This document shows, piece after piece, positions 40,774 through 55,821 of a stretch of 64,000 nucleotides of DNA. The stretch lies in contig NZ_JAAAKZ010000015.1 in the NCBI RefSeq assembly GCF_009905605.1, forward strand, positions 1 to 64,000, in the 5' to 3' direction. The notes under the pieces were generated by a model, which searched no databases, was not told where the DNA came from, and saw only the letters and a program-made list of their open reading frames with translations. Position 1 is the first letter of the stretch. Each line of letters starts with the position of its first letter. A program made the position numbers and the translations under genes. Source of the stretch: Runella sp. CRIBMP. Lineage in GTDB: Bacteria > Bacteroidota > Bacteroidia > Cytophagales > Spirosomataceae.

Positions 40774-41844
40774 TTACAAATTCTTCAACAACTCTGCGCC
40801 CATGGCGTCGGTGCCTAAGATTTTGTCGGCGGGAGTTTCGCTGTTGGCGATGTCGCGCGTGCGGAAACCGGCTTTCAACACGGCATCTACGGCGGCGATG
40901 ATGGCCTCAGATTCTGCTTTCAAACCAAACGAAATATCCAACAATAATGCTGCCGAAAGAACAGATGCCAACGGATTGGCAACGCCTTTGCCCGTGATGT
41001 CGTGCGCTGAACCGTGGATAGGCTCGTATACGCCAGTGCTGTCGCCTACCGAAGCAGAAGCCAACATTCCCATAGAACCCGCAATTTGACTGGCTTCGTC
41101 GGTGAGAATATCGCCAAATAAGTTACCCGTTACAACCACGTCAAAACGGCGTGGGTCTTTGATGAGCAACATCGCCGCCGCATCAATGAATTGGTGTTCT
41201 ACCTCTACGTCTGGATATTCGGGAGCCAATTTCTGAATAACTTCACGCCACAAACGACTTGATTCCAGCACGTTGGCTTTATCGACCGACATGAGTTTTT
41301 TGCTGCGCGTACGAGCGGCTTCAAACGCCTTGCGGGCAATGCGCTCCACTTCGTATTTGCTGTAAATCATGGTATCGTAGGCGGTATTTCCGTCGTCAAG
41401 GCGTTCACGCTTTCCGAAATATACGTCGCCAGTCAACTCACGGAAAAAGAGAATATCACAGCCTTTCAGGATTTCAGGTTTGATACTAGATGCTTCCAAC
41501 AACTCATCAAACAATTTGATAGGACGCAGATTGGCGTACAAGCCAAGCTCTTTGCGCATTCTCAACAAACCCTGCTCTGGACGTACTTTAGCCGAAGGGT
41601 CGTTGTCGTATTTGGGGTGGCCTACGGCACCAAACAAAATGGCATCGGAAGCGCGCATTTTAACGAGGGTTTCTTCGGGAAGCGGGTCGCCAGTGGCTTC
41701 GATGGCTACGTGGCCGATGAGGGCTTCGTCGTAGGTAAATTCATGGCCGAATTTTTCGGCGATGCGGTCTAAGACCTGTTTTCCAACGGTGGTAACTTCT
41801 TGCCCGATACCATCACCGGGAACGATTAGGATGTGTTTTTTCAT
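40774..41844 (-). CDS. leuB: 3-isopropylmalate dehydrogenase
   Basis: 356 residues. Isocitrate/isopropylmalate dehydrogenase hallmarks: PGDGIGQEVT, substrate Arg cluster RPEQGLLRMRKELGLYANLRP, RELTGDVYFGKRE, catalytic Lys/Asp in DKANVLESSRLWREVI, and GNLFGDILTDEASQIAGSMG. It oxidises 3-isopropylmalate in leucine synthesis. Relatives also use 3-methylmalate if the upstream synthase is a citramalate synthase. It is the last gene of the leuC-leuD-leuA-leuB operon, 16 bp after the synthase. Confidence 0.96.
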   Translation of the reverse strand: MKKHILIVPGDGIGQEVTTVGKQVLDRIAEKFGHEFTYDEALIGHVAIEATGDPLPEETLVKMRASDAILFGAVGHPKYDNDPSAKVRPEQGLLRMRKELGLYANLRPIKLFDELLEASSIKPEILKGCDILFFRELTGDVYFGKRERLDDGNTAYDTMIYSKYEVERIARKAFEAARTRSKKLMSVDKANVLESSRLWREVIQKLAPEYPDVEVEHQFIDAAAMLLIKDPRRFDVVVTGNLFGDILTDEASQIAGSMGMLASASVGDSTGVYEPIHGSAHDITGKGVANPLASVLSAALLLDISFGLKAESEAIIAAVDAVLKAGFRTRDIANSETPADKILGTDAMGAELLKNL

Positions 41845-41860
41845 TTGTATTTTTGTACAA

Positions 41861-43378
41861 CTATATAGAAATCAAGTTCAGCATCTTCTGAGTGGCTTTG
41901 ATGGCCGATACCGTTTGGTCAGAGTCCAAGCCTCTGGTTTTAAACTCTTTATTGTTCCAATTCCACGTGATGATGGTTTCACAAAGTGCGTCGGTGCGCC
42001 CTCCCGTTGGGATACGAACGGCGTAATCAGTCAACAGCGGGAGCGTTTTTCCTTTGACCTCATAAATTTTCTTCAGCGCATTCATAAACGCATCGTACTG
42101 ACCATCACCCTGCGCATTTTCTTCAAACACCTCATCTTCGATTTTCACCTTGAGCGTTGCCGATGGTTTTAGGTCTTTGGAGTGGGTCAACACATAATTG
42201 AGCACTTCAATTTTGTACTCGATGGCGTTGGTATCCAACACGTCAGAGATAATGTACGGAAGGTCGTCTTGCGTCACCACTTCCTTTCTATCACCGAGTT
42301 CAATGATTCGTTGCGTTACTTTTTTGAGGTCTTCATCGGCGAGTTTGATGCCCAATTCCCGAAGGTTATTTTCGATATTGGCTTTCCCCGACGTTTTGCC
42401 CAATGCATACGAACGCTTGCGCCCAAAACGCTCTGGCATCAGCTCATTGAAATACAGGTTGTTTTTCTTGTCGCCATCGGCATGAATACCAGCTGTTTGG
42501 GTAAAAACATTATCTCCCACAATCGGTTTGTTGGCTGGAATACGAAGCCCAGAGAAGGTTTCAACGATTTTGCTAATGGAATACAACGACTCCTCCACTA
42601 CTCCCGTGGTTACTTCTGGCATGAAATCCTTCAAGACGGCAATCGCACTTGCCAACGGCGCATTTCCCGCCCGTTCTCCCATGCCATTGACCGTCAAATG
42701 CAATCCGTGGGCTCCCGCCCGCACTGCTTCCATAACGTTGGCAATGCTTAAATCATAATCGTTATGGGCATGAAAATCAAAGTGTTGATTAGGATAACGC
42801 TCCACAATTGATTTTACAAACGAATAAGATTCAGCTGGCGTAAGCACCCCCAGCGTATCGGGCAACAGCACGCGACGAATGGGCTGAGTAGTCAGAAAAT
42901 CAAGGAATTGGAATACATATTCGGGAGAATTACGCATTCCATTGCTCCAATCTTCGAGGTACACATTGGCAGAAATCCCTTTCGAATGTGCCAACGCAAT
43001 CACTTTTTGAATGTCTTCAAAATGCGCTTCGGGTGTTTTTTTGAGTTGATGCACCAAGTGATTCAGCGATCCTTTGGTCAACAGGTTCATGACCGTAGCA
43101 CCCGATTCAAGCATCCAGTTGATAGACGCTTCGCCGTCTACAAACGTCAGTACTTCCACCTTATCCAAAAAACCGTTTTCCTTCGCCCAATCGGTGATTT
43201 TCTTTACCGCCCGAAATTCTCCTTCTGACACCCGCGCCGAAGCAATTTCGATGCGGTCGACTTTGACATCCGTGAGAAGCAGTTGGGCCAACGCCAGCTT
43301 TTCAGAAGCCGAAAAAGACACTCCGCTGGTTTGTTCACCGTCGCGGAGTGTCGTATCCATTATTTCGATGTATCTCAT
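41861..43378 (-). CDS. leuA: 2-isopropylmalate / citramalate synthase family enzyme
   Basis: 505 residues. A TIM-barrel with DTTLRDGEQTSGVSFSASEK, the metal-binding HAHNDYDLS and the Gly-rich NGMGERAGN is followed by a linker and a C-terminal LeuA dimer/regulatory domain (~385-490: IEYKIEVLNYVLTHS, AVRIPTGGRTDALCETIITW). The post-barrel motif reads HADGDKKNNLYFNELMPERFG and YALGKTSGKANIE, not the classical HQDGVLK / LGKHSGR of LeuA. This resembles the citramalate-synthase branch, so acetyl-CoA plus either 2-ketoisovalerate or pyruvate could be the reaction. It sits between leuD (2 bp) and leuB (16 bp), so it functions with them. Confidence 0.85.
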   Translation of the reverse strand: MRYIEIMDTTLRDGEQTSGVSFSASEKLALAQLLLTDVKVDRIEIASARVSEGEFRAVKKITDWAKENGFLDKVEVLTFVDGEASINWMLESGATVMNLLTKGSLNHLVHQLKKTPEAHFEDIQKVIALAHSKGISANVYLEDWSNGMRNSPEYVFQFLDFLTTQPIRRVLLPDTLGVLTPAESYSFVKSIVERYPNQHFDFHAHNDYDLSIANVMEAVRAGAHGLHLTVNGMGERAGNAPLASAIAVLKDFMPEVTTGVVEESLYSISKIVETFSGLRIPANKPIVGDNVFTQTAGIHADGDKKNNLYFNELMPERFGRKRSYALGKTSGKANIENNLRELGIKLADEDLKKVTQRIIELGDRKEVVTQDDLPYIISDVLDTNAIEYKIEVLNYVLTHSKDLKPSATLKVKIEDEVFEENAQGDGQYDAFMNALKKIYEVKGKTLPLLTDYAVRIPTGGRTDALCETIITWNWNNKEFKTRGLDSDQTVSAIKATQKMLNLISI

Positions 43379-43380
43379 AA

Positions 43381-43977
43381 TTAGAAAAGAAGCGCGGCCT
43401 CAAAAGCGCCGATTTCTTCTTTCATGGCCCGCAGATAGTCAATATCATCGAACCCGTTTAACAAATTGTGTTTTTTGTAACCGTTGATATCGAAAGACTC
43501 CTTTTCGCCAGTGGCTAGAATAGTCACCGTTTGGTCGGGCAAGCTTACTTCCAATTCGGTTTTTGGGTCTTTTTCAATCGCCAAAAAGATTTTATCCAAA
43601 AACTCTGGGCTTACCGTTACGGGCAAAATTCCAACGTTGATGGAGTTGTTCTTGAAAATATCGGCAAAGAAACTCGAAATGACGCAACGGAAACCGTAAT
43701 CGTAGATGGCCCACGCGGCGTGCTCGCGACTCGAACCGCTTCCGAAGTTACGACCGCCAACAAGGATTTTGCCGGAGTAAATTGGGTTGTTCAGTACAAA
43801 ATCGGCTTTGGGTGAATTGTCAGGATTATAGCGCCAATCGCGAAAAAGATTATCGCCGAAGCCTTCCCGCTTGGTGGCTTTCAAAAAGCGAGCGGGGATG
43901 ATTTGGTCGGTATCCACGTTCTCCAAGGGAAGAGGTACCGCCGAAGATTTTAATATGGTGAATTGATCGTATGCCAT
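43381..43977 (-). CDS. leuD: 3-isopropylmalate dehydratase small subunit
   Basis: 198 residues, the standard LeuD length. LPLENVDTDQIIPARFLK at the start, and the swivelling-domain motif GGRNFGSGSSREHAAWAI. With LeuC it isomerises 2- to 3-isopropylmalate (and citramalate to 3-methylmalate). It follows leuC by 14 bp. Confidence 0.97.
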   Translation of the reverse strand: MAYDQFTILKSSAVPLPLENVDTDQIIPARFLKATKREGFGDNLFRDWRYNPDNSPKADFVLNNPIYSGKILVGGRNFGSGSSREHAAWAIYDYGFRCVISSFFADIFKNNSINVGILPVTVSPEFLDKIFLAIEKDPKTELEVSLPDQTVTILATGEKESFDINGYKKHNLLNGFDDIDYLRAMKEEIGAFEAALLF

Positions 43978-43991
43978 GATTATTTTATTGT

Positions 43992-45389
43992 TTATAAAAA
44001 CTCCCGTGGGTCAGTTACTTTGCCGGTGACGGCGGCGGCGGCAGCTACATAAGGACTGGCCAGCAACGTGCGTGCTCCCGGACCCTGGCGCCCTTCAAAG
44101 TTGCGGTTTGAAGTACTAACGGCGTATTTACCCGCTGGAATCTTGTCATCGTTCATCGCCAAACAAGCCGAACATCCTGGCTGACGCAATGAGAAACCTG
44201 CTTCGGTCAAAATGTCCAAAATACCTTCTTCTTGGATTTGAGCTTCTACGATGTGAGAGCCCGGTACCAGCCAAGCCGTTACATTATCGGCTTTCTTACG
44301 GCCTTTTACAATAGACGCAAACGCCCTGAAGTCTTCAATACGACCGTTGGTACAACTTCCCAAAAACACGTAGTCAATCGGCTTGCCAATCATACTATCA
44401 TCTTCAGCAAAACCCATGTATGCCAGCGATTTAGCATAAGACGCGCCACCGTCCAATACTTGCTCGGCTTTAGGGATGTGTTGAGAAATACCCGTTCCTA
44501 AGCCTGGATTGGTTCCGTAGGTGATTTGGGGTTCGATGTCAGCCGCGTCGTAGGTATATTCCAAGTCGAACGTCGCGCCTTCATCCGTTTTGAGGGTTTT
44601 CCAGTAGGCCAGTGCTTTGTCCCATGCTTCGCCTTTAGGCGCTTGCTCGCGGCCTTTTAGGTAGGCAAATGTAGTCTCGTCGGGAGCGATCATACCGCCG
44701 CGCGCACCCATTTCGATCGACATGTTACAAACCGTCATACGGCCTTCCATGCTCATATTTTCAAACACTTCACCAGCATATTCTACAAAATAACCCGTAG
44801 CACCACTGGCCGAAATCTGTGAAATAATGTACAGCACCGCATCTTTTGGCAATACGCCTTTGCCCAACTTACCATTGATGGTAATGCGCATTTTCTTGGG
44901 TTTAGGCTGCATGATACACTGTGATGCCAGCACCATTTCCACTTCTGAGGTACCAATCCCGAAGGCAATGGCTCCGAAAGCACCGTGCGTAGAGGTGTGT
45001 GAGTCACCGCAAACGATGGTCATACCTGGAAGGGTGATACCATTTTCAGGCCCAACTACGTGTACGATTCCGTTTTTAGCATGGCCCAAACCCCAGTGCG
45101 AAATACCGTACTTTGCAGTATTGGTTTCGAGGGCTTTCAACTGATTGGCCGAAAGCGGGTCTTGTACCGGCAAATGTTGGTTGATGGTAGGCGTGTTGTG
45201 GTCGGCAGTGGCAAAGGTACGCTCAGGAAACAGCACACCTATACCGCGACTTTCCAGTCCCAAAAAGGCCACAGGGCTAGTGACTTCGTGAATAAAGTGA
45301 CGGTCGATGAAGAACACATCGGGTCCGTCTTCAATCTTGCGGACAACGTGGGCATCCCACACTTTGTCGAAGAGGGTTGTTTTTGACAT
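43992..45389 (-). CDS. leuC: 3-isopropylmalate dehydratase large subunit
   Basis: 465 residues of aconitase fold. The [4Fe-4S] ligands are Cys in [11 protein letters not shown] and the two Cys of [10 protein letters not shown]. Also seen are [39 protein letters not shown] and the C-terminal [11 protein letters not shown]. It is the first gene of the leuC-D-A-B operon. A ~170-bp spacer separates it from the AraC-type gene upstream. No leader peptide was seen there. Confidence 0.97.
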
Positions 45390-45556: not shown

Positions 45557-46399
45557 TCAATCGGTTTTTTTTGGCGTAAATCCGTATTTTTCTTTGTAAG
45601 CCTTAATAAAATGGGAAACGCTCTCGTAGCCAATTTCCATGCTTACTTCCGAAACGTTTTTGTTGGCATTTTTGAGAAGAAAGGCCGCTTGTTCCAAGCG
45701 TTTTTGTTTGATCCAATTGGCGGGAGAGGTGTGAAACTGTTCTTCAAAATCACGCTTGAAAGCCGACAGGCTACGCCCCGACAAATGCGCCAATTCACTT
45801 ATTGTCAGGGGCTTTAAGTAGTAATTATTCAACAAATATTCCAGCTCGGTCTTTTGCCCTTTATAGATGTTGAACAAAATGGATTTGAGTTGTCCAGAAA
45901 TATCAATTTCAATCAAATGCAGTAGTAACTCCTGAAATTTGAGCCGCAAAAACTGGTTTAAGTAGGGTGTTTGGGAATGAAAATAAGGCAAAAGTGAATC
46001 AATAAACTTCTCAAAAGTAGGCGATGACTGAAGAACCAAGATAGGCTGCGTATGGTCAGCCTCTGCCTGAGCAAATAGGGTCTGATTTTGATTCACGAAC
46101 TCTTTGAGGAGCTTTTCATGAAAGAAAAAAACCAGACTTCGGTAATCGCTCCCGATAGACTCATTCATCGAATAACAGCCCCGCTGAAAAAACAAAATGT
46201 CTCCCTTTCGAACATGCAAATCTTGATTGGGAGAAATAAATTTTTTCTCTCCTTCAAGCACTACCACTACGGCATGTTCTTCAAAAAAAATCTCGTTTCG
46301 CTCTGGATACACATCACTCCGGTAGGCCACAAAAGTCATATCCTGAATTTTCAGGGACTGAAACTGTTGGGCGCTGATGGAAGAAGGAACACGAAGCAT
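45557..46399 (-). CDS. AraC-family transcriptional regulator
   Basis: 280 residues. A cupin-like sensor half (FEEHAVVVVLEGEKKFISPNQDLHVRKGDILFFQRGCYS) is followed by the AraC-type double helix-turn-helix in the last ~100 residues: LTISELAHLSGRSLSAFKRDFEEQFHTSPANWIKQKRL and VSEVSMEIGYESVSHFIKAYKEKYGFTPKK. It sits between the ilvA pair and leuC on the same strand, so regulation of branched-chain amino-acid genes is an obvious hypothesis. The ligand is unknown. Confidence 0.92.
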   Translation of the reverse strand: MLRVPSSISAQQFQSLKIQDMTFVAYRSDVYPERNEIFFEEHAVVVVLEGEKKFISPNQDLHVRKGDILFFQRGCYSMNESIGSDYRSLVFFFHEKLLKEFVNQNQTLFAQAEADHTQPILVLQSSPTFEKFIDSLLPYFHSQTPYLNQFLRLKFQELLLHLIEIDISGQLKSILFNIYKGQKTELEYLLNNYYLKPLTISELAHLSGRSLSAFKRDFEEQFHTSPANWIKQKRLEQAAFLLKNANKNVSEVSMEIGYESVSHFIKAYKEKYGFTPKKTD

Positions 46400-46504: not shown

Positions 46505-46723
46505 TTAATCAAACGCCCCGCCTTTTTTTAGGGCCTGATAATCGTCGCCAATCGTCTTGTATTGCGACATTAGAAATTTCTGCAATTCTTCATTGAACAC
46601 TTTTTTTTCTTCCTCCGAAAGTGCGTCGTACAAGTCTTTCAACTCTTGGTTGATCGCTGCTTTTTCGGCTTCACTTTGGGCATTAATGGCCCTGACGTGG
46701 TATTTTCTAAAATCAAAGTTCAT
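46505..46723 (-). CDS. Small helical protein coupled to ilvA
   Basis: 72 residues, highly charged and helical (AEKAAINQELKDLYDALSEEEKKVFNEELQKFL). It begins within the ilvA stop (ATGA, 4-bp overlap), so it is translated with threonine dehydratase. No family is recognised. A role as a small partner of IlvA is speculative. A T-rich hairpin candidate lies between its stop and the AraC gene. Confidence 0.75.
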   Translation of the reverse strand: MNFDFRKYHVRAINAQSEAEKAAINQELKDLYDALSEEEKKVFNEELQKFLMSQYKTIGDDYQALKKGGAFD

Positions 46724-48003
46724 ATCAAAAACTCAAATAGATCGGGCTTATTATTGATGTATTCAAATTGCATATTGTGCTCCTGCATTCGGGCCAAGAG
46801 CGGTTCAAAATCTTCTTTGTGCCGCAGTTCGATACCTACTAAGGCGGGACCGCGTTCACGAGCTGTTTTTTTGGAATATTCAAAGTGCGCAATGTCATCG
46901 TTGGGACCGAGCACATGGTTCAAAAACTCTTTGAAGGCTCCCGAACGTTGCGGAAAACGGATGATGAAGTAATGTTTAAGCCCTTCGTACAGCAGACTGC
47001 GTTCTTTTATTTCTTCGGTGCGTGTAATGTCATTATTGCCACCACCAATTAGCAATACCACATCTTTGCCCTTGATTTCATCCTTGATTTGGTCGAGTGC
47101 CGCTACCGTAAGCGCACCCGCTGGTTCTACTACGATGGCCTCTTCGTTGTACAATTGTAAAATCGTAGAGCATACTTTTCCTTCGGGAACCAACAAAATA
47201 GAATCCAGATTCTTGCGACACACTTCAAACGTATGCTCACCCGCGCGTTTTACGGCGGCTCCGTCTACAAACTTATCAATATTTTCGAGCGTTACTACAT
47301 GATTCTCTTTGATGGCAGTGTACATTGTAGGAGAGCCAAGTGGCTCTACACCAATGAGTTTTGTGGCGGGACTCAATTGTTTAAATACCGTTGTTACGCC
47401 CGACGCCAATCCACCGCCGCCAATGGCAAACAGCAGATAATCAATTTTAAAATCGGCATCCCGGAAGATTTCCAGCCCGACGGTCCCCTGCCCTTCCATC
47501 ACCTGCACGTCGTCAAAGGGGTGAATAAATGTCGCCTCATTACTTTCGCAAAAGTGCTTAGCGGCGTGGTAGGCATCGTCGTAGGTATCGCCGTGCAGTA
47601 CTACTTCAATTTGGTCTTTACCGAAAAGTTTGACCTGCTTTACTTTTTGAGCAGGCGTGGTACTGGGCATAAAAATTCGGCCGCGAACTTGCATTTTATT
47701 ACAGGCATAAGCTACGCCCTGAGCATGGTTGCCTGCCGAAGCACACACCACTCCTTTTTCAAGGGCCTCTGCTGACAAGCTCGCCATTTTGTTGTACGCC
47801 CCCCGAATCTTGTAAGAGCGCACCACCTGCAAATCTTCCCGTTTGAAGTAGATGTTGGCTTCGTATCGCTCCGAAAAATTGAGATTTAGCTCCAAATCGG
47901 TGTGCTTTACCACTTTTCGAATTCGCTCGGCAGCCTGCAAAATATTATCAAATGTCGGCAAATCGGCGACTTTATGTTTGTGTTTTTCGGAGGCGATACT
48001 CAT
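46720..48003 (-). CDS. ilvA: Threonine ammonia-lyase (threonine dehydratase)
   Basis: 427 residues. Fold-type II PLP enzyme: Lys65 in SYKIRGAYNKM, SAGNHAQGVA, phosphate loop GGGGLASG, and Ser/Gly in LIGGGNND. The C-terminal ~85 residues form a single ACT-like regulatory domain (HYFIIRFPQRSGAFKEFLNHVLG), as in the shorter biosynthetic type, so isoleucine feedback is likely. It makes 2-oxobutanoate for isoleucine. It lies 139 bp downstream of ilvC, with a strong hairpin in between. Confidence 0.95.
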   Translation of the reverse strand: MSIASEKHKHKVADLPTFDNILQAAERIRKVVKHTDLELNLNFSERYEANIYFKREDLQVVRSYKIRGAYNKMASLSAEALEKGVVCASAGNHAQGVAYACNKMQVRGRIFMPSTTPAQKVKQVKLFGKDQIEVVLHGDTYDDAYHAAKHFCESNEATFIHPFDDVQVMEGQGTVGLEIFRDADFKIDYLLFAIGGGGLASGVTTVFKQLSPATKLIGVEPLGSPTMYTAIKENHVVTLENIDKFVDGAAVKRAGEHTFEVCRKNLDSILLVPEGKVCSTILQLYNEEAIVVEPAGALTVAALDQIKDEIKGKDVVLLIGGGNNDITRTEEIKERSLLYEGLKHYFIIRFPQRSGAFKEFLNHVLGPNDDIAHFEYSKKTARERGPALVGIELRHKEDFEPLLARMQEHNMQFEYINNKPDLFEFLI

Positions 48004-48142: not shown

Positions 48143-49186
48143 TTAGTTACGCTCTGGACGCAAGCTGCGAACGGCCGCCCCTGCACGCCACATTTCTGAA
48201 TCACGAAGCTCGGCCAATTCTACTTCGAGTTTTTCGCGGTAGTCAGGCTGCGAGTTACGCGTGATAGAAATGTTTGCCTGCTCGCCTGATTTTACTGAAT
48301 CGTACAGTTTCTGGAAGACAGGCTTAGTAGCTTCTTTGAAAGGTTTCCACCAGTCAAGGGCGCCGCGTTGGGCAGTAGTTGAGCAGTTTGCATACATCCA
48401 ATCCATACCGTTTTCGGCTACAAGCGGCATCAATGATTGCGTCAATTCTTCTACGGTTTCGTTGAATGCTTCTGATGGCGAGTGACCGTTTTCGCGCAAT
48501 ACTTCGTATTGAGCGGCAAAAATCCCTTGAATAGCACCCATCAACGTTCCACGCTCACCAGTAAGGTCAGACGTAACTTCACGGTAGAAATCAGTTTCAA
48601 ACAAATAACCTGAACCTACACCGATACCCATGGCGATACATTTTGTGCGGGCATTGCCAGAAGCATCTTGATATACGGCAAAAGAAGAGTTAAGTCCTTT
48701 TCCTTCTACAAACAAACGACGAAGTGACGTTCCTGAGCCTTTGGGCGCTACCAAAAATACGTCAACATCAGCGGGTGGAATGATACCTGTTTGTTCTTTA
48801 TAAGTTACACCAAAACCGTGTGAGAAGTACAGAGACTTGCCCGGAACAAGTGCCTTCTTTACGGTTGGCCACAATTCAATTTGAGCAGCATCCGACAGCA
48901 AGAAACAAATGATGGTTCCTTTTTCGAGGGCTTCTTCGATTTCGAAAAGCGTCTCACCTGGCACCCAGCCATCTGCAACTGCTTTATCGTAGGTTTTTCC
49001 TTTACGTTGTCCAACGATTACGTTGAAACCGTTATCGCGCATATTTAAGCTCTGACCCGGGCCCTGAACACCGTAACCAATAACGGCGATTGTTTCATTT
49101 GCCAATACTTCACGTGCTTTTTCAAGAGGAAATTCTTCGCGGGTTACTACTTCTTCTACGCTCCCGCCGAAATTGATTTGTGCCAT
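48143..49186 (-). CDS. ilvC: Ketol-acid reductoisomerase
   Basis: 347 residues. The N-terminal Rossmann motif GYGVQGPGQSLNMRDNGFNV, with Arg-Lys in GQRKGK, suits NADPH. The helical knotted domain has ligands in DLTGERGTLMGAIQG and the substrate region NCSTTAQRGALDW. The GYGVQGPGQ form is more like the yeast Ilv5/Bacteroidota branch than the E. coli one. It converts acetolactate and acetohydroxybutyrate. It is 37 bp downstream of the methyltransferase gene, in the same transcript direction as ilvDBN. Confidence 0.96.
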   Translation of the reverse strand: MAQINFGGSVEEVVTREEFPLEKAREVLANETIAVIGYGVQGPGQSLNMRDNGFNVIVGQRKGKTYDKAVADGWVPGETLFEIEEALEKGTIICFLLSDAAQIELWPTVKKALVPGKSLYFSHGFGVTYKEQTGIIPPADVDVFLVAPKGSGTSLRRLFVEGKGLNSSFAVYQDASGNARTKCIAMGIGVGSGYLFETDFYREVTSDLTGERGTLMGAIQGIFAAQYEVLRENGHSPSEAFNETVEELTQSLMPLVAENGMDWMYANCSTTAQRGALDWWKPFKEATKPVFQKLYDSVKSGEQANISITRNSQPDYREKLEVELAELRDSEMWRAGAAVRSLRPERN

Positions 49187-49223: not shown

Positions 49224-49976
49224 TTATTTTGTCTTTTGCCACGTAAGCAGGGCCGACACGCCCACAAATAGTTTTATTTTTTTTTGAATCAACCAGTCTT
49301 CCGTTTTAAAAATACGTCCGAATATTTTTTGAAAAACTGGGCCGTTCATTACCGTAAAATCTGACCCAGCATCCTCTATCTTTTGCTGATGCAAGGGCAG
49401 TAATTTTGACAGCAATCGGAAAAAAGCAATCGGAAAAAAAAGCCAAAAATTGAAATAACTGCTGAATACGATTTTTCCGCTTTTCTTAAATAACTCTCCA
49501 AGCCCCGCCATTGTGTACCGACGCACGTGGTGATTGACGTCGTCGTGCTGGTTCCACAAAAACATAAATGCTGGCACCGTTACACATACCAAGCCATTGG
49601 GCTTACACACTCGTTTCATTTCATCAACCGCCAGTTGATGTTCTTCGACATGTTCGATTACGTCGAAAGCACAAACCAAATCGTAAGTCTCATCATCAAA
49701 GGGCAATTCGAGAATTGAACCTTGTATCAAATCAATCGGTACATTTGCTTTGGTAAAAGCATAACATTCTAGATCGTACTCCACTGATTTTACGCCTCCA
49801 AACACTCCCAGAAGCTCCGACGAATGCCCGGTTGCTACTCCTACATTCAAGATTTTCAGCGGACGTTGAGCTGGCAGAGTCTGTTTCAAATGATTGATGA
49901 TAATCTGATTCCGAACCACAAACCACCAATGCTCTCTTTCGATATGGTAATATTGCTTATAATATTCTTGATTCAT
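49224..49976 (-). CDS. Class I SAM-dependent methyltransferase
   Basis: 250 residues. SAM-binding motif I is LKILNVGVATGHSSELLG, the acidic residue is at VEYDLE, and the post-motif region is YDLVCAFDVIEHVEEHQLAVDEMKRVCKPNGLVCVTVPAF (methyltransferase-11 type). The C-terminal part has a hydrophobic segment (YFNFWLFFPIAFFRLLSKLL), so it may be membrane-associated. It lies 6 bp after a polytopic membrane protein and 37 bp before ilvC, so it interrupts the ilv gene run. The substrate is unknown, with lipid or glycan methylation possible. Confidence 0.88.
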   Translation of the reverse strand: MNQEYYKQYYHIEREHWWFVVRNQIIINHLKQTLPAQRPLKILNVGVATGHSSELLGVFGGVKSVEYDLECYAFTKANVPIDLIQGSILELPFDDETYDLVCAFDVIEHVEEHQLAVDEMKRVCKPNGLVCVTVPAFMFLWNQHDDVNHHVRRYTMAGLGELFKKSGKIVFSSYFNFWLFFPIAFFRLLSKLLPLHQQKIEDAGSDFTVMNGPVFQKIFGRIFKTEDWLIQKKIKLFVGVSALLTWQKTK

Positions 49977-49982
49977 AGCGAC

Positions 49983-51125
49983 TTATGGGAAAGACATCGG
50001 TAACATTAAAGAAACGAGTGTACTGACAATCAGTAAATATTTTAACTGATTGATTGGCACATGTTCCCGTAAAATAGCCAGCATGAAAAAGAACATATAA
50101 AAACCAAAAGAGAGGGAGCGAGTGCCGTCGGCAACCATCACTCCGATTACCCCAGTAATCAGTATACATCCGCCCAGTAATACCAGCGCCCACCAATCTT
50201 TCAGCATGACTAGAACCGCCATCCCCGCAAAAACAATAAGCCAAAAGCCTTCTAAACCACGCGTAAATTTATCACCTAGAATGCTTATGCTCCACCAACT
50301 CGTCTGCTGCGACAAGTCATTGTCGTGGCCTACTTTCAAGCCATACGTTGTAGCAAGCCACTGCCGTATCACTAAATAAATTCCCGCACTCATCACCAAT
50401 GCAACTACGGGCAGCGGAATCTCTTTAAGGGAAAATTTTCGTTTATCAATCACTTGCTTAATGAGCGGCAACACGTACCATAATCCTAAATAAGAAGAAT
50501 TGATAATGGCGCGCTCATCACACCAAAAGGCCAGTTGCGTAAACAGTAAAACCGATAGGGGGTTTCGGAAATAAAATGCCAACACCATGAAACAAAACGG
50601 GAAGGCATCGCAATGGCCCAAGAAATTGATGTAAAAATTAGCCCCAGCGTAGATTGCCGTAAACCCCGTCATGAAATAGAAGGTTAGGATTTTATCCTTG
50701 ACTATGTCATAAACTGCCCGTGTCATAAACCACAAAAACACCAGTCCTACCAATACATGAAGTACGTATAAACCAGCAACATTGAGGTGCAACGCCTGTG
50801 CAATAAGTGGGATGGTCAGACGAAAGGTTTGATTTGCCTCGTGCGACCCCGCTTCATAGTCTTTAGGTGTAAACGGATCAGCGCCCTGTTTGATAATATC
50901 ATCCCAAAAAAGCCCGCCGATAGAACCCGGCTGCCGCATTTCAAGATACAAGCTTCGCAAGCCCTTATCGACCAAAATAAAATTAAAGGTCAAAAGGGTG
51001 CCAGTTGAGACAATCAGGGCTAAAAATAATAGCCTTATCTGCCAAAATTTATTGTCAAAGAACGGTTGTAATTTACTGTCCAGCCACCTAAAAGGTGTTG
51101 TAAGTGATTGCTGTGGTTGTTTCAT
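49983..51125 (-). CDS. Polytopic membrane protein of unknown function
   Basis: 380 residues with about nine to ten hydrophobic segments. The first long loop (RQPGSIGGLFWDDIIKQGADPFTPKDYEAGSHEANQTFR) and the scattered charged residues in loops (NFLGHCDAFPF, WCDERAIINSSYLG) resemble GT-C-like or EpsG-like membrane glycan enzymes, but no diagnostic motif is clear. It probably works with the methyltransferase gene 6 bp downstream. It is placed 88 bp after ilvN within the ilv run. Confidence 0.75.
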   Translation of the reverse strand: MKQPQQSLTTPFRWLDSKLQPFFDNKFWQIRLLFLALIVSTGTLLTFNFILVDKGLRSLYLEMRQPGSIGGLFWDDIIKQGADPFTPKDYEAGSHEANQTFRLTIPLIAQALHLNVAGLYVLHVLVGLVFLWFMTRAVYDIVKDKILTFYFMTGFTAIYAGANFYINFLGHCDAFPFCFMVLAFYFRNPLSVLLFTQLAFWCDERAIINSSYLGLWYVLPLIKQVIDKRKFSLKEIPLPVVALVMSAGIYLVIRQWLATTYGLKVGHDNDLSQQTSWWSISILGDKFTRGLEGFWLIVFAGMAVLVMLKDWWALVLLGGCILITGVIGVMVADGTRSLSFGFYMFFFMLAILREHVPINQLKYLLIVSTLVSLMLPMSFP

Positions 51126-51213: not shown

Positions 51214-51750
51214 TTAAGCATAATACTCGCCATGTACCTCCTGCGGAAGGTACTCCACTAACCCTTGAGGGGTTTTTCCAACGGCTACACGGCCTGATTT
51301 TACGAATTCAAGTATTCCGTAAGGCTTAATATACCGGAAGAAATCCATGATTTCGGCTTCATTACCGGCCTTCTCGATCACCACGTAGTCGAGTCCCCAG
51401 TAAACCACCCAAGCTTTGTACACTTTATTGATGGTTTCGATATCGATGGGCCGGGTCCCAATAGGGGTTGCGATTTTGAAAAGCGCAATTTCGTTGTACA
51501 CAACCTCGTCGTCTAAGTATCCGAACACGGCCAAAACTTCCACCACTTTGCGGATTTGACGAACCAGTTTTTCGACCTCTTCGCGTTTATCGTGTTTGAT
51601 GGTAATGGTGTACCGAGATACCCCTTTTCGTTCCGTTTCCGACACCGTCAAGCTTTCAATGTTGACCCGTCGACGGGTGAAAAGAATCGTAATTTTATTT
51701 AAGAGTCCGAAAGTATTTTCGGTAAATATACAGATGGTGTAAGTCGTCAT
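51214..51750 (-). CDS. ilvN: Acetolactate synthase small (regulatory) subunit
   Basis: 178 residues from MTTYTICIF (an ATG three codons upstream is also possible). An N-terminal ACT domain (YTICIFTENTFGLLNKITILFTRRRVNIESL) is followed by a C-terminal domain typical of the family. It confers valine feedback on the catalytic subunit IlvB. It follows ilvB by 87 bp. Confidence 0.93.
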   Translation of the reverse strand: MTTYTICIFTENTFGLLNKITILFTRRRVNIESLTVSETERKGVSRYTITIKHDKREEVEKLVRQIRKVVEVLAVFGYLDDEVVYNEIALFKIATPIGTRPIDIETINKVYKAWVVYWGLDYVVIEKAGNEAEIMDFFRYIKPYGILEFVKSGRVAVGKTPQGLVEYLPQEVHGEYYA

Positions 51751-51837
51751 AAGCCCCAACCGAATCGTCGGCTCGCTCCAAACGGGAGTTTTAGTTGTGC
51801 ATTTATTTAAGTACCAAACCGTTGCTGTCTTGTCGGC

Positions 51838-53640
51838 CTAGTCCAACCGAATATCAACAACCGAAGCCCCAGCGGGGACCATTGGAAATACGTTTTCTTC
51901 TTTCTCCACGATTACTTCCAACAAATACGGCTTGTCTGATTTGAGCAAGGCATCTAGCGAGTCGCTCAGATTGTCGCGCTCAGAGCAAGTATGACCCGTA
52001 ATCCCGAAACCTTTGGCAATGGTTACAAAATCGGGGTTTTTCAGCTCCACAAATGAGTAGCGTTTTTCGAAGAACAGCTGTTGCCACTGCCGTACCATTC
52101 CCAAATAATTATTGTTGAGAATAATCAATTTTACGGCTAATCCGCTCTGCGCAATGGTTCCTAATTCTTGAATGGTCATCTGAAAACAACCATCACCAAT
52201 AAAGGCCACTACTTCACGGTCAGGAGCGCCTTTTTTGGCACCAAACGCAGCTGGAATAGCAAAACCCATGGTTCCTAATCCGCCCGAAGCAATGTATGAA
52301 TGTGGCTTTTTAAACTGGTAATACCGCGCTGCAATCATCTGATGCTGACCTACATCTGCAATAATACAGGCCTCTCCGTTGGTTTTTTGGGAAAGCATAT
52401 TCACCACTTCTGCCATCTTGATTTCTCCTTCTTCCTTCAATTCCCGACGGGTTACTTTCTGCTCTTCGATGACGTCAAATTTCTTAAATTCATTGCGCCA
52501 TGTAGAGTGATTGTTGGTCTTCACCAACGGAAGCAGCTTCCGCAAAGCTTCCTTTGCATCACCTACCACGGGGGCTTCTGCTTTGATGATTTTGTCAATC
52601 TCTGAGGGGTCTATTTCAATATGCACTACTCTAGCCTGACGAATGTACTTGGTGGCGTCGCCCGTTACGCGGTCGTCAAAACGCATTCCAATGGCAATAA
52701 TGACATCAGCTTGGTCGGTCAATACGTTGGGGCCGTAATTGCCGTGCATTCCCAACCAACCCACATAATTAGGGTGGTCAATCGGCATCGCCGACAATCC
52801 CAACAAAGTACTGGCGCAGGGAATATCGGTTTTTTCAACGAAAGCCTTCAGTTCTTCCATCGCTCCCGAAATCAACACACCGTGCCCAAATAAAATATAG
52901 GGTTTTTTGGCATTATTGATTAATTCCGCCGCTTTCTGTACGTGTTCATCTTTAGGAACAATACGGGGTTTGTAGCTGGCCAAACCCTCTATTTTTTTGT
53001 ATTGATAGGGCTTATCCATCATCCCGACCTGTGCATCCCGCGTAAAGTCAATCACTACGGGGCCGGGTTTTCCAGAAGTGGCAATATAAAACGCCTTAGC
53101 CATTACTTCTGGCACTTCGTCGGGGTGGGTGATTTGATAGTTCCACTTACACACGGGCGTTGTTACACCAATAATGTCGGTTTCCTGAAAAGCATCCGTT
53201 CCTAACAAAGTGGATTTTACCTGTCCGATGATGCACACCAAAGGCGTACAGTCGATAATGGCATCGGCGATGGGTGTCACTAAATTAGTACCGCCAGGGC
53301 CAGAAGTCACCAGACAAACGCCGGGTTTTCCGCTGGTACGGGCGTATCCCTGCGCCGCATGCCCAGCTCCTTGCTCATGCCGCACCAAAATATGGTCTAG
53401 GCGGTCGGTATAATCAAAGAGGGCATCATAGGTGGGCATGATGGCACCGCCCGGGTAGCCAAAAATCACTTCCGTCCCTTCGGCAATCAGTGATTCCATG
53501 AGCGCCTGCGCTCCCGACAAAAACCGAGGGCCTTCGGCAATAACGTCTGTTGTTGTCATTGGCTGAGCTGTTTCTTGCGTCAAAACAGCTTCTGCCGACG
53601 CAATTTCCTGTTGTGCAATCATGGTTAATTGGTTGTCCAT
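51838..53640 (-). CDS. ilvB: Acetolactate synthase large subunit
   Basis: 600 residues. ThDP-enzyme domains in order: the pyrimidine-binding domain with EVIFGYPGGAIMPTYDAL and HEQGAGHAAQGYAR, a central FAD-type domain, and the pyrophosphate domain with GDGCFQMTIQELGTIAQSGL ending in LNNNYLGMVRQWQ. An extra ~45-residue N-terminal segment (QQEIASAEAVLTQETAQ) precedes the catalytic domain and looks unstructured. It forms acetolactate or acetohydroxybutyrate, steps shared by valine, leucine and isoleucine. It is 37 bp after ilvD. Confidence 0.96.
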   Translation of the reverse strand: MDNQLTMIAQQEIASAEAVLTQETAQPMTTTDVIAEGPRFLSGAQALMESLIAEGTEVIFGYPGGAIMPTYDALFDYTDRLDHILVRHEQGAGHAAQGYARTSGKPGVCLVTSGPGGTNLVTPIADAIIDCTPLVCIIGQVKSTLLGTDAFQETDIIGVTTPVCKWNYQITHPDEVPEVMAKAFYIATSGKPGPVVIDFTRDAQVGMMDKPYQYKKIEGLASYKPRIVPKDEHVQKAAELINNAKKPYILFGHGVLISGAMEELKAFVEKTDIPCASTLLGLSAMPIDHPNYVGWLGMHGNYGPNVLTDQADVIIAIGMRFDDRVTGDATKYIRQARVVHIEIDPSEIDKIIKAEAPVVGDAKEALRKLLPLVKTNNHSTWRNEFKKFDVIEEQKVTRRELKEEGEIKMAEVVNMLSQKTNGEACIIADVGQHQMIAARYYQFKKPHSYIASGGLGTMGFAIPAAFGAKKGAPDREVVAFIGDGCFQMTIQELGTIAQSGLAVKLIILNNNYLGMVRQWQQLFFEKRYSFVELKNPDFVTIAKGFGITGHTCSERDNLSDSLDALLKSDKPYLLEVIVEKEENVFPMVPAGASVVDIRLD

Positions 53641-53677: not shown

Positions 53678-55363
53678 TTATGCTTCATCCGTTACACAGC
53701 CTTCGCTTGCTGACTTCACATTGCGGATGTATTTGCCCAACGTTCCTTTTTTGAACGGCGGCTCAGGTTGTTTCCACTCCTTGCGGCGCTCGGCCAGTTC
53801 TTCGTCCGACACGTGCAGTTGTAGTACGTTGTTTACGGCATCAATCGTAATTTTATCACCGTCTTTTACCAAGCCAATTGTTCCGCCCATGTAGGCTTCT
53901 GGCGTGATGTGGCCTACCACAAAACCGTGCGTACCACCCGAAAAACGACCATCGGTAATCATCGCGATTTTGTCACCAAGGCCTGCTCCCATTACTGCCG
54001 ATGTTGGCTTAAGCATTTCGGGCATACCCGGACCGCCTTTGGGACCTTCATTGCGAATCACGACGACATGCCCCGCTTTGATTTCGCCTTTTGAAATGTA
54101 TTCAATCACTTCTTCTTCGCGCTCACATACCTTGGCGATTCCTTCAAAACGCTCACCTTCTTTGCCCGTAATCTTGGCCACGGCACCTTCCGTTGCCAAG
54201 TTTCCGTACATGATTTGTAAGTGCCCCGTTGGTTTGAGGGGCGTCGAAAGCGGGAAAATGATTTTTTGGGTATCGAAATTCAAATCAGGAGCTTCGGCCA
54301 AATTCTCAGCGATGGTTTTGCCCGTTACGGTCAAGCAATCGCCGTGCAAAAGGCCCTGCTGATACAAATACTTCATAATGGCCGGAACCCCGCCAATGGC
54401 CAGTACATCTTCCATATAATACTTACCAGACGGTTTAAGGTCGGCAATCAACGGCGTACGGTCCGAAATATCCTGAATGTCTTTTAACGTAAAATCTACT
54501 TCTGCGGCACGGGCAATGGCCAAATAATGCAACACAGCGTTGGTCGAACCACCCAATGCCATCACCACCGTCATGGCGTTTTCAAAGGCTTTGCGCGTCA
54601 TGATGTCGCGCGGGCAAATGTTTTTCTCCAGCAATTGTTTCATGGCCGCTCCAATGGCGATGCACTCCGCTTTTTTGCCTTCATGTGTGGCTGGATAGGT
54701 CGATGAATTGGGTAACGTTAAGCCCATTGCTTCCATGGAGCTGGCCATGGTATTGGCCGTATACATTCCGCCGCATGCTCCTGCCCCTGGAATCGCATTT
54801 TGAATAACCCCTTCGTAATCGTCGTCCGAAATCGTTCCAGCAAACTTTTTACCCAAGGCTTCAAATGCAGAAATAATGTCAAGTTTCTGTCCTTTATATT
54901 CTCCCGTTCGGATTGTTCCGCCGTAGACCAACATGGCAGGACGGTTCAAACGGGCAATGGCTATCATGGCACCAGGCATATTTTTATCACAACCTACCAC
55001 CGCAATCACTCCATCGTACCATTGAGCCCCCACTACGTTTTCGATAGAATCGGCAATCAAGTCACGGCTAGGCAGCGAATAGCTCATCCCGTCGTTGCCG
55101 TTGGTCATGCCATCAGATACGCCAATGGTGTGAAAAATAAGGCCGACCATGCCATTTTCCTGAATTCCTTTTTTTACATGCACCGACAATCCGTTGAGGT
55201 GCATGTTGCAGGTGTTTCCTTCATAACCCGTACTGGCAATGCCAATTTGGGCTTTTTGCATGTCTTCTTTGGTCAATCCTACGCCATAAAGCATGGCTTT
55301 GGCGGCTGGATTTGTTACTTCTTGCGTAAGCGTGCGGCTAAATTTGTTAAGTTGTTCTGACAT
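53678..55363 (-). CDS. ilvD: Dihydroxy-acid dehydratase
   Basis: 561 residues of standard IlvD length. Iron-sulphur Cys residues are in [24 protein letters not shown] and [14 protein letters not shown]. The C-terminal substrate region is [21 protein letters not shown]. It is the first structural gene of the ilvD-ilvB-ilvN run, preceded by a leader peptide and attenuator whose U-run ends 18 bp before its ATG. Confidence 0.97.
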
Positions 55364-55381: not shown

Positions 55382-55419
55382 AAAAAAGCCTCACTCATCT
55401 TTCGGTGTGAGTGAGGCTT
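55382..55419 (-). terminator. Attenuator terminator of ilvD operon
   Basis: On the minus strand AAGCCTCACTC pairs perfectly with GAGTGAGGCTT (11 bp, 12-nt loop), followed by T6. The last T ends 18 nt before the ilvD ATG. It shares its 5' arm with the antiterminator, so only one of the two can form. Confidence 0.88.
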
Positions 55420-55450
55420 CGACGGTAGCAATCGGAATCCACTCACACCG
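55403..55450 (-). promoter_or_regulatory. Antiterminator stem of ilvD attenuator
   Basis: On the minus-strand RNA, CGGTGTGAGTG (covering leader codons 17, 18 and the stop) is perfectly complementary over 11 bp to CACTCACACCG. The latter includes five bases of the terminator's 5' arm. A ribosome stalled earlier in the Ile/Val run leaves the first segment free to pair and blocks termination. A ribosome reaching the stop masks it and lets the terminator form. Confidence 0.82.
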
Positions 55451-55499
55451 TTTGGGTGCAAAGAATGACGACCACGACCACAATTATATTAGCAAACAT
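55443..55499 (-). CDS. ilvL: Branched-chain amino acid leader peptide of ilvD operon
   Basis: An 18-codon ORF encodes MFANIIVVVVVILCTQTV followed by TGA. Residues 5-13 are nine consecutive Ile, Val or Leu codons (Ile2, Val5, Ile, Leu), which is far from chance and is the hallmark of an ilv leader peptide. It lies upstream of ilvD on the same strand, and its stop codon is inside the antiterminator segment. An A-rich tract (CTAAA) precedes the ATG, as expected for Bacteroidota starts without Shine-Dalgarno. The ORF is too short for ordinary gene callers. The peptide itself presumably has no function beyond ribosome stalling when charged tRNA-Ile, -Val or -Leu is scarce. Confidence 0.85.
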   Translation of the reverse strand: MFANIIVVVVVILCTQTV

Positions 55500-55523
55500 T
55501 TTAGAGCAAATTTTTTCTGATAG

Positions 55524-55557
55524 CGAAATTACGCTAATTGCGTATTTGCGTTACAAA
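55524..55557 (-). promoter_or_regulatory. Putative promoter of the ilvD operon
   Basis: On the minus strand TTTG, 22 nt, then TAATTTCG: one mismatch from TAnnTTTG. Transcription would start about 18 nt before the leader-peptide ATG, which fits an attenuation leader. Confidence 0.55.
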
Positions 55558-55821
55558 TAAAACCGGTCAGGATTTATTTTCCAAACAAAAGTTAATTTTT
55601 TTGCATTATCCCAACCCAAAAACGCCTATACTGCCTCTGAAGGCACAAAAAATTGTCACTTCTTTTGATTCTCCTCTTTTAATGATTTTAACAAAAATCT
55701 AGGCTTGTTTTAGTATCCTTACAATCACTTATTGTATTATGCCAATAAATATACAACATTATGAAACTTTTTATATAACTTTTCTACTATATAAGCATTA
55801 TTCATTAAAATTCGTACAGCA

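Follow-up and report, generated by a model that had tools for sequence, protein, structure and literature searches.

A putative four-region attenuator with a branched-chain leader peptide ahead of ilvD in Runella and its relatives in the Spirosomataceae

How are the branched-chain amino acid genes led by ilvD controlled in Runella sp. CRIBMP? An earlier note, made from the letters of this DNA alone, had read the region upstream of ilvD as a complete transcription attenuator. We analysed the window (the whole stretch of 64,000 nucleotides) together with the ilvD upstream regions of related genomes. The genes downstream of the proposed attenuator are the following:

53678..55363, minus strand: ilvD, dihydroxy-acid dehydratase (TIGR00110 above cut-off)
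51838..53640, minus strand: ilvB, acetolactate synthase large subunit (TIGR00118 above cut-off)
51214..51759, minus strand: ilvN, acetolactate synthase small subunit (TIGR00119 above cut-off)
49224-51125, same strand, between ilvN and ilvC: a 380-aa protein (no Pfam/NCBIfam match) and a methyltransferase-domain protein
48143..49186, minus strand: ilvC, ketol-acid reductoisomerase (TIGR00465 above cut-off)
46720..48003, minus strand: ilvA, threonine ammonia-lyase (NF006390 above cut-off)
45557-46399, same strand as the ilv genes: AraC-type regulator, between ilvA and leuC
40774..45389, minus strand: leuC, leuD, a leuA/cimA-type gene and leuB, further down the same strand and possibly co-transcribed with the ilv genes

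The run ilvD-ilvB-ilvN(-ilvC) that had been named before was recovered by these profile matches, with the refinement that the same-strand run extends to leuC-leuD-cimA/leuA-type-leuB. The leuA/cimA-type gene at 41861-43378 encodes a LeuA_dimer synthase whose best NCBIfam match, the Leptospira-type citramalate synthase NF042433, is below its cut-off. Apart from this LeuA/CimA-type synthase the genome encodes a leuA at another place. The genome also holds a second IlvD-like dehydratase (C5:48701-50254, locus L002), which is 34% identical.

Upstream of ilvD we read the following parts:

55443..55499, minus strand: leader peptide ORF, MFANIIVVVVVILCTQTV, 18 aa (ATG 55499-55497, TGA stop 55445-55443)
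55455..55467, minus strand: region 1, which may pair with region 2 (protector hairpin; RNAfold MFE, weak support)
55439..55450, minus strand: region 2, antiterminator 5' arm, CGGTGTGAGTG(G), spanning the last leader codons and the stop
55403..55414, minus strand: region 3, antiterminator 3' arm, (T)CACTCACACCG, overlapping the terminator 5' arm
55386..55419, minus strand: intrinsic terminator hairpin of 12 bp, AAGCCTCACTCA (55419-55408) / TGAGTGAGGCTT (55397-55386), which includes region 3
55382..55387, minus strand: T6 tract, 3' end of the terminator, read from the sequence

The run of nine branched-chain codons in the leader is ATA ATT GTG GTC GTG GTC GTC ATT CTT. The 18-residue ORF with nine consecutive branched-chain codons that the earlier note had described was confirmed on the minus strand at 55499-55443, and direct reading also recovered its antiterminator over the last leader codons and the stop as well as the overlapping terminator with the T6 tract. 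The spacing to the gene had been given correctly too, with 18 nt from the last T of T6 (55387-55382) to the ilvD start (55363). For the upstream strand of ilvD, RNAfold returned −43.5 kcal/mol with a z of −4.2, and none of the 200 shuffles was equally stable. We then scanned the window with a detector that combines a terminator with an ATG-started ORF of at least 7/8 I/L/V residues; within the 64 kb the ilvD leader site was the only match.

We consider that a four-region ribosome-mediated transcription attenuator very probably controls the ilvD-led branched-chain genes, with a probability of roughly 0.93. The parts, their conservation and their covariation can be read off the sequences; leader translation, termination, stalling and the identity of the amino acids sensed are what we infer from them. 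With ample charged Val, Ile and Leu tRNA the ribosome would move to the leader stop and cover region 2, region 3 would then pair with region 4, and transcription would stop at T6. In a shortage of Val, Ile or Leu the ribosome would stall within the I/V/L run and mask region 1, region 2 would be free to pair with region 3 once this is transcribed, and the polymerase would enter ilvD. Induction would accordingly come from uncharged tRNA. The attenuator reading put forward in the earlier note gained support from a conserved leader, from covariation in both stems and from leucine-rich leaders ahead of leuA.

Within the genus we found the attenuator in all 12 genomes that have the window's ilvD; 13 were searched and the thirteenth has no match to this ilvD. 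Of the 80 best-scoring named ilvD loci (from at least 595 candidates), the closest is a Runella MAG with 94% identity at IlvD. For the family we used a sample of 94 hand-picked ilvD upstream regions, consisting of our own region, 28 from the search for relatives, 60 spread over genera and five more. There was an IlvD match in 193 of 200 family genomes, and the 60 regions were picked from among the matches listed. The attenuator was present in 55 of the 94 sampled regions and in 15 of 31 genera. At a threshold of 5/8 the detector matched 57/94 family regions and 0/470 dinucleotide shuffles of them. When the threshold was set to 6/8, I/L/V leaders were detected in 53/94 family regions and in 19/80 named loci, whereas none of eight other amino-acid triples exceeded one match in either set. 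As 39 of the 94 sampled regions are without such a unit, the ilvD attenuator is dispensable. These 39 negative regions include one of only 53 nt (L180) and two dropped detector matches (L161, L184), in which the ORF lies more than 360 nt upstream of ilvD and has an implausible content.

Of the 80 best-scoring named ilvD loci, most of them from Bacteroidota, about one in four looks similar: at the loosest setting 23 of them showed a leader and a terminator, compared to 2/800 shuffles, and at the setting with ATG and 6/8 the 19 matches compare to 0/800. We dropped L067 (a 5/8 match with a MAG label outside the phylum) at the loosest setting and discounted L003 at 6/8, where the match was another ORF at −375 and not its own attenuator; this leaves 22 and 18 named loci, respectively. 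Positive loci include Flavobacterium, Lutibacter, Meridianimaribacter, Elizabethkingia (with a GTG start), Sediminibacterium and Segetibacter, as well as Saprospiraceae MAGs and one Ignavibacteriae MAG. A further named locus, L078, looks attenuator-like by eye and was missed by the detector. The best 80 matches also contain ilvD on MAG contigs L040, L044, L067, L074 and L081, respectively labelled Thalassovita, Planktophila, Pirellulaceae, Acidiferrobacterales and Planctomycetaceae, which are possibly misbinned. We also scanned 15 further regions (L185-L199), almost all of which belong to different families within the order, and obtained one match: L187 (genome G052, same order, other family) carries a plausible ilvD attenuator with the leader MKFTPHHSFELLLVVIIRIT and is not part of the family count.

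For the comparative analysis we aligned 55 family sequences (alignment A2, without L003 and L083, which duplicate L093 and L001). All 55 share the start codon of the leader. The positions T26, T29, T35, T38 and T41 (numbered in L001) are invariant or at least 90% conserved and all of them are second codon positions, a pattern that would result from a leader that holds on to I/L/V codons but not to particular ones. In the terminator helix 94.8% of the cells are paired and double changes occur in 8/12 pairs, with 119 double-change cells compared to 40.5 in shuffles. The antiterminator shows 84.0% paired cells and double changes in 8/13 pairs, with 55 double-change cells compared to 19.0 in shuffles. 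Both covariation scores were above all 500 shuffles and above every slid version, though these shuffles ignore relatedness. The sequences had been picked for a terminator and an I/L/V ORF, with the antiterminator as a bonus only among candidates within a region, so the terminator score is inflated by the selection. For further pair types in the terminator the observed number was reached by 96/500 shuffles. The antiterminator columns 80/115, 82/113 and 83/112 were unpaired in 20, 17 and 24 of the 55 sequences. Sliding the antiterminator by −2 also gave 8 double-change pairs, but with 21 cells instead of 55 and only 51.3% paired.

The strongest evidence of covariation is the three-way table of regions 2, 3 and 4. 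For columns 79/116/135 we observed TAT in 21, ATA in 14 and GCG in 8 of the 55 sequences, and for columns 78/117/134 GCG in 44, ATA in 10 and GTA in 1. When the region-3 base changes, its two alternative partners change too, which is what stems that exclude each other demand. RNAalifold on the alignment returned the terminator only, which is what alternative stems are expected to give. The earlier note had named the absence of a conserved leader ORF or of covarying stems in relatives as the outcome that would speak against it; since in the aligned ilvD upstream regions the I/L/V leader is conserved and both stems covary, this outcome, the one testable from sequence, did not occur.

The geometry of the leader agrees with a stalling ribosome. 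In the Runella leader the last I/V/L codon is 16 nt ahead of the conserved start of the region-2 pairing (alignment column 73). Across the alignment this distance is between 9 and 20 nt in 52/55 sequences (13 nt in 23/55 and 16 nt in 11/55), with one case of 7 nt and two of 4 nt, and in 55/55 the end of the ORF falls at −6 to +5 nt relative to where region 2 starts. With such a placement, typical of leader-peptide attenuators, a ribosome stalled at the control codons would free region 2 and a terminating one would cover it. For staged folding we assumed a ribosome that sits on the last I/L/V codon and hides region 1. Before region 4 had been transcribed, the 2:3 pairing then formed in 52/55 sequences; hiding the stop region instead led to 3:4 in 55/55. 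Without a ribosome the early 2:3 pairing was seen in only 20/55. Covariation and staged folding together point to an antiterminator and a terminator that exclude each other. When the full-length RNA was folded with a stalled ribosome, 3:4 beat 2:3 in 53/55, and because 3:4 wins at full length even then, antitermination must be kinetic. The predicted 1:2 protector hairpin is weakly supported: its mean z over the 55 sequences is −1.29 with values below −1 in 30/55, and within the genus z lies between −0.2 and 1.0 in 8/11 sequences.

A second attenuator of this kind was read before the separate leuA of the same genome:

L114 1493-1634 (own genome, C2:89738 onward): leuA attenuator, with leuA at L114 1706-2860

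It comprises the leader MTIKYIISLNRLPLTKTV with leucine codons, the antiterminator GAGAAGGGG/CCCTTTCTC and a terminator. We studied 21 leuA upstream regions and found a leader and a terminator in 16 by script and in L250 by eye; the remaining four (L204, L205, L206, L218) showed no leader plus terminator. In the 17 leuA leaders Leu accounts for 68 of 274 residues, compared to 34 for Ile and Val together. In the 55 ilvD leaders the figures are 159 for Leu and 377 for Ile and Val of 906 residues. The amino-acid bias of the leaders follows the pathway, judging from these compositions, and the short ORF is rich in the codons of the amino acids of its operon. The leuA alignment (A3) is too ragged for pair counts. 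In genus g5 none of five ilvD regions (L106, L156, L158, L173, L174) has an attenuator, whereas all seven leuA regions do (L209, L210, L213, L250-L253; L250 by eye). Two g5 genomes are represented by both genes, G016 (L106, L210) and G118 (L174, L213), and in each of them leuA is with and ilvD without the attenuator. This pattern indicates that ilvD and leuA gained or lost their attenuators separately. At the own genome's loci for HisG and homoserine dehydrogenase the script found no leader plus terminator.

Another noticeable characteristic of the two upstream regions is an element that they share. At ilvD we propose the following arrangement:

55582..55585, minus strand: proposed −33 element TTTG, within GTTTGGAAAATA, inferred from the layout at the leuA promoter
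55554..55561, minus strand: proposed −7 element TTTATTTG, with one mismatch to TAnnTTTG and a 20-bp spacer to TTTG
55523..55543, minus strand: 21-bp element ACGC-N5-GCGNANNTTCGC, which reads ACGCAATTAGCGTAATTTCGC at ilvD and is shared with the leuA upstream region; a candidate operator or element of the 5' UTR

The near-consensus promoter of the earlier note, which gives no position for it beyond an interval ending at 55557, stood in so far as there is a candidate promoter upstream of the leader, but probably not at the place that this interval implies (TTTG 55557-55554, N22, TAATTTCG 55531-55524), which we keep only as an alternative to the leuA layout. The ilvD promoter probably lies about 30 bp further upstream, judging from that layout. 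The own leuA promoter reads TTTG-N19-TACTTTTG with a 10-bp offset to the 21-bp element, as proposed for ilvD, and since leuA has TACTTTTG at an equal offset, TAATTTCG is more likely part of the element. A TAnnTTTG box (e.g. TACTTTTG, TATTTTTG) ten bases 5' of the element was encountered upstream of the own leuA and in several other places, and because of this spacing at leuA we put the ilvD −7 box at 55561-55554, which places the element directly behind the start. The sequence GTTTGGAAAATA was found in 11/12 genus loci (L093 has GTTTGGAAAAAC), and L010, a named Dyadobacter locus, carries it too.

A search with the pattern ACGC-N5-GCGNANNTTCGC gave 70 matches in 42/101 family genomes, whereas the reversed pattern used as a control gave 9. 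Two of the matches fall in the own genome, before the ilvD leader and before leuA (C2:89738-89758, or L114 1493-1513, about 190 nt before a 384-aa leuA-type gene), where the control had none. We fetched 16 places of the element with their genes, of which 12 lie before leuA and four before ilvD, two of the latter (L215, L217) being 0.5-0.9 kb upstream; in eight further fetched places leuA was recognised only by its visible start. Many of the other matches among the 70 lie just upstream of known ilvD coordinates, and some of the remainder are probably due to chance. At its palindromic core the element overlaps with the −7 box to which the earlier interval points, and this core was found at most 60 nt from the first ORF in 36/55 regions with a leader and in 27/39 without. 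Looser forms gave little sign of a wider regulon: AGCGAAWWTTCGCT with one mismatch had 8 matches per strand compared to 5 in the control, and GCGNAWWTTCGC on both strands had 20 compared to 21 in the own genome, 19 to 29 in G003, 23 to 20 in G010 and 23 to 13 in G011. In these pattern counts only the 21-bp form stands out beyond its control, and the looser core is without a clear wider regulon. We see a slightly better than even chance that branched-chain genes in Spirosomataceae form a regulon of two layers, in which an undescribed putative regulator would recognise ACGC-N5-GCGNANNTTCGC (as a DNA operator or as an RNA element of the 5' UTR) just downstream of the ilvD and leuA starts, and in which leader-peptide attenuators would be gained, lost or kept separately at each gene. 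The AraC-type regulator encoded at 45557-46399, between ilvA and leuC, is a possible candidate for binding the shared element.

A first alternative puts the 21-bp element in the place of the leader. If ilvD had only a plain terminator, or a promoter controlled by a transcription factor, the small ORF would be incidental and the element would do the regulating. Its presence at both ilvD and leuA fits this, as does the palindromic core, which is kept in genera without the attenuator (at most 60 nt from ilvD in 27/39 such regions). Such a scheme is nevertheless very improbable, as it leaves unexplained the three-way covariation of regions 2, 3 and 4, the difference between I/L/V and other triples, and the constant T at second codon positions. 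Even less credit is due to a metabolite- or tRNA-binding RNA (riboswitch or T-box) that senses the amino acid, with the ORF being secondary. A terminator with alternative structures would appear similar in that case, but no Rfam family reached its gathering score in the window, and between 55350 and 55620 the five matches recorded all fell well short of their cut-offs, with E from 0.31 to 8.6. The covariance models of T-boxes and amino-acid riboswitches in Rfam likewise gave no match at the gathering score in the window. Furthermore the stem sequences vary freely without a conserved binding core, and the conserved feature is the codon content.

More weight has to be given to a variant of the attenuator itself, in which the leader senses mainly a general slowing of the ribosome or a single amino acid, valine in the case of Runella. 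Among the genus leaders it is the Val codons that change least, and Ile and Leu positions vary (MFTITGVVVVLIISTQMV, MFNTTGVVVTLISSTPTV); across the family, on the other hand, the 55 leaders use I, L and V about equally (190, 159 and 187 of 906), and we regard this variant as unlikely, though well ahead of the other two alternatives. The preferred reading remains a leader that would respond to Ile, Val and Leu.

The E. coli ilvGMEDA, ilvBN and leu attenuators are the classic enterobacterial cases. The Runella region resembles the enterobacterial ilv and leu attenuators in its layout, with an I/V/L leader, an antiterminator over the leader stop and a terminator that shares the 3' arm, and also in having ilv genes downstream and, elsewhere in the genome, a leuA with a leucine leader of its own. 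It differs from enterobacterial ilv in its Bacteroidota-type promoter and in ilvD being the first gene. To our knowledge, translation starts in Bacteroidota are not driven by Shine-Dalgarno pairing, unlike those of enterobacterial attenuators.

According to a 2010 study, leader-peptide systems had to its authors' knowledge been shown only in Proteobacteria and Actinobacteria, to which Firmicutes were added (PMC2965389). For S. aureus ilv, PMC5794164 reports a leucine-rich attenuator peptide ahead of the branched-chain synthesis genes, the differences being that this is a member of the Firmicutes with CodY as a second layer. In the Bacteroidota themselves, small ORFs that recall leader peptides are mentioned for B. 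thetaiotaomicron (PMC7366714), and a transcriptome study of Flavobacterium psychrophilum reports structured 5' regions with 'strong clues' that operons for amino-acid biosynthesis are preceded by leader-peptide attenuators (PMC9723704). The latter candidates belong to the same phylum and to another class than Runella, and the main text of that article is without the string 'ilv'. The Bacteroid-trp RNA (Rfam RF01692; PMC2864571, discussed in PMC6414381) is likewise an attenuator-type leader before an amino-acid operon in Bacteroidota, but with Trp codons and another RNA. RF01692 had no match in the window at the gathering score or in the own genome at E up to 0.001, and in the 29 genomes searched there was one sub-threshold match with 47.9 compared to 49 bits (G017, same family). 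By eye, this place (L200 1480-1600, minus strand) shows a leader with three Trp codons. With PMC9723704 and RF01692, attenuation in Bacteroidota is less unknown than the earlier note supposed, although switches of this type have been little studied in the phylum. None of the listed papers, in the text available, describes a leader attenuator at ilvD or leuA for Bacteroidota; Lopatovskaya et al. 2010 (cited in PMC4833913) may cover it. As a kind, leader-peptide attenuation is already known in Bacteroidota, and the ilvD case is very well supported by the comparison of related sequences.

Leader-peptide attenuation needs a ribosome in the leader while the polymerase makes the next hundred or so bases. 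The three-way covariation over 55 sequences therefore implies that close timing of transcription and translation operates in a family of the Bacteroidota, and such timing would hold despite starts that are not driven by Shine-Dalgarno pairing. The ilvD attenuator is thereby a natural reporter which makes this timing testable in Bacteroidota. For annotation, the results hint that ilvD, and leuA within Spirosomataceae, often carry such leaders. The 21-bp element that the two genes have in common suggests that a second layer of control exists at both.
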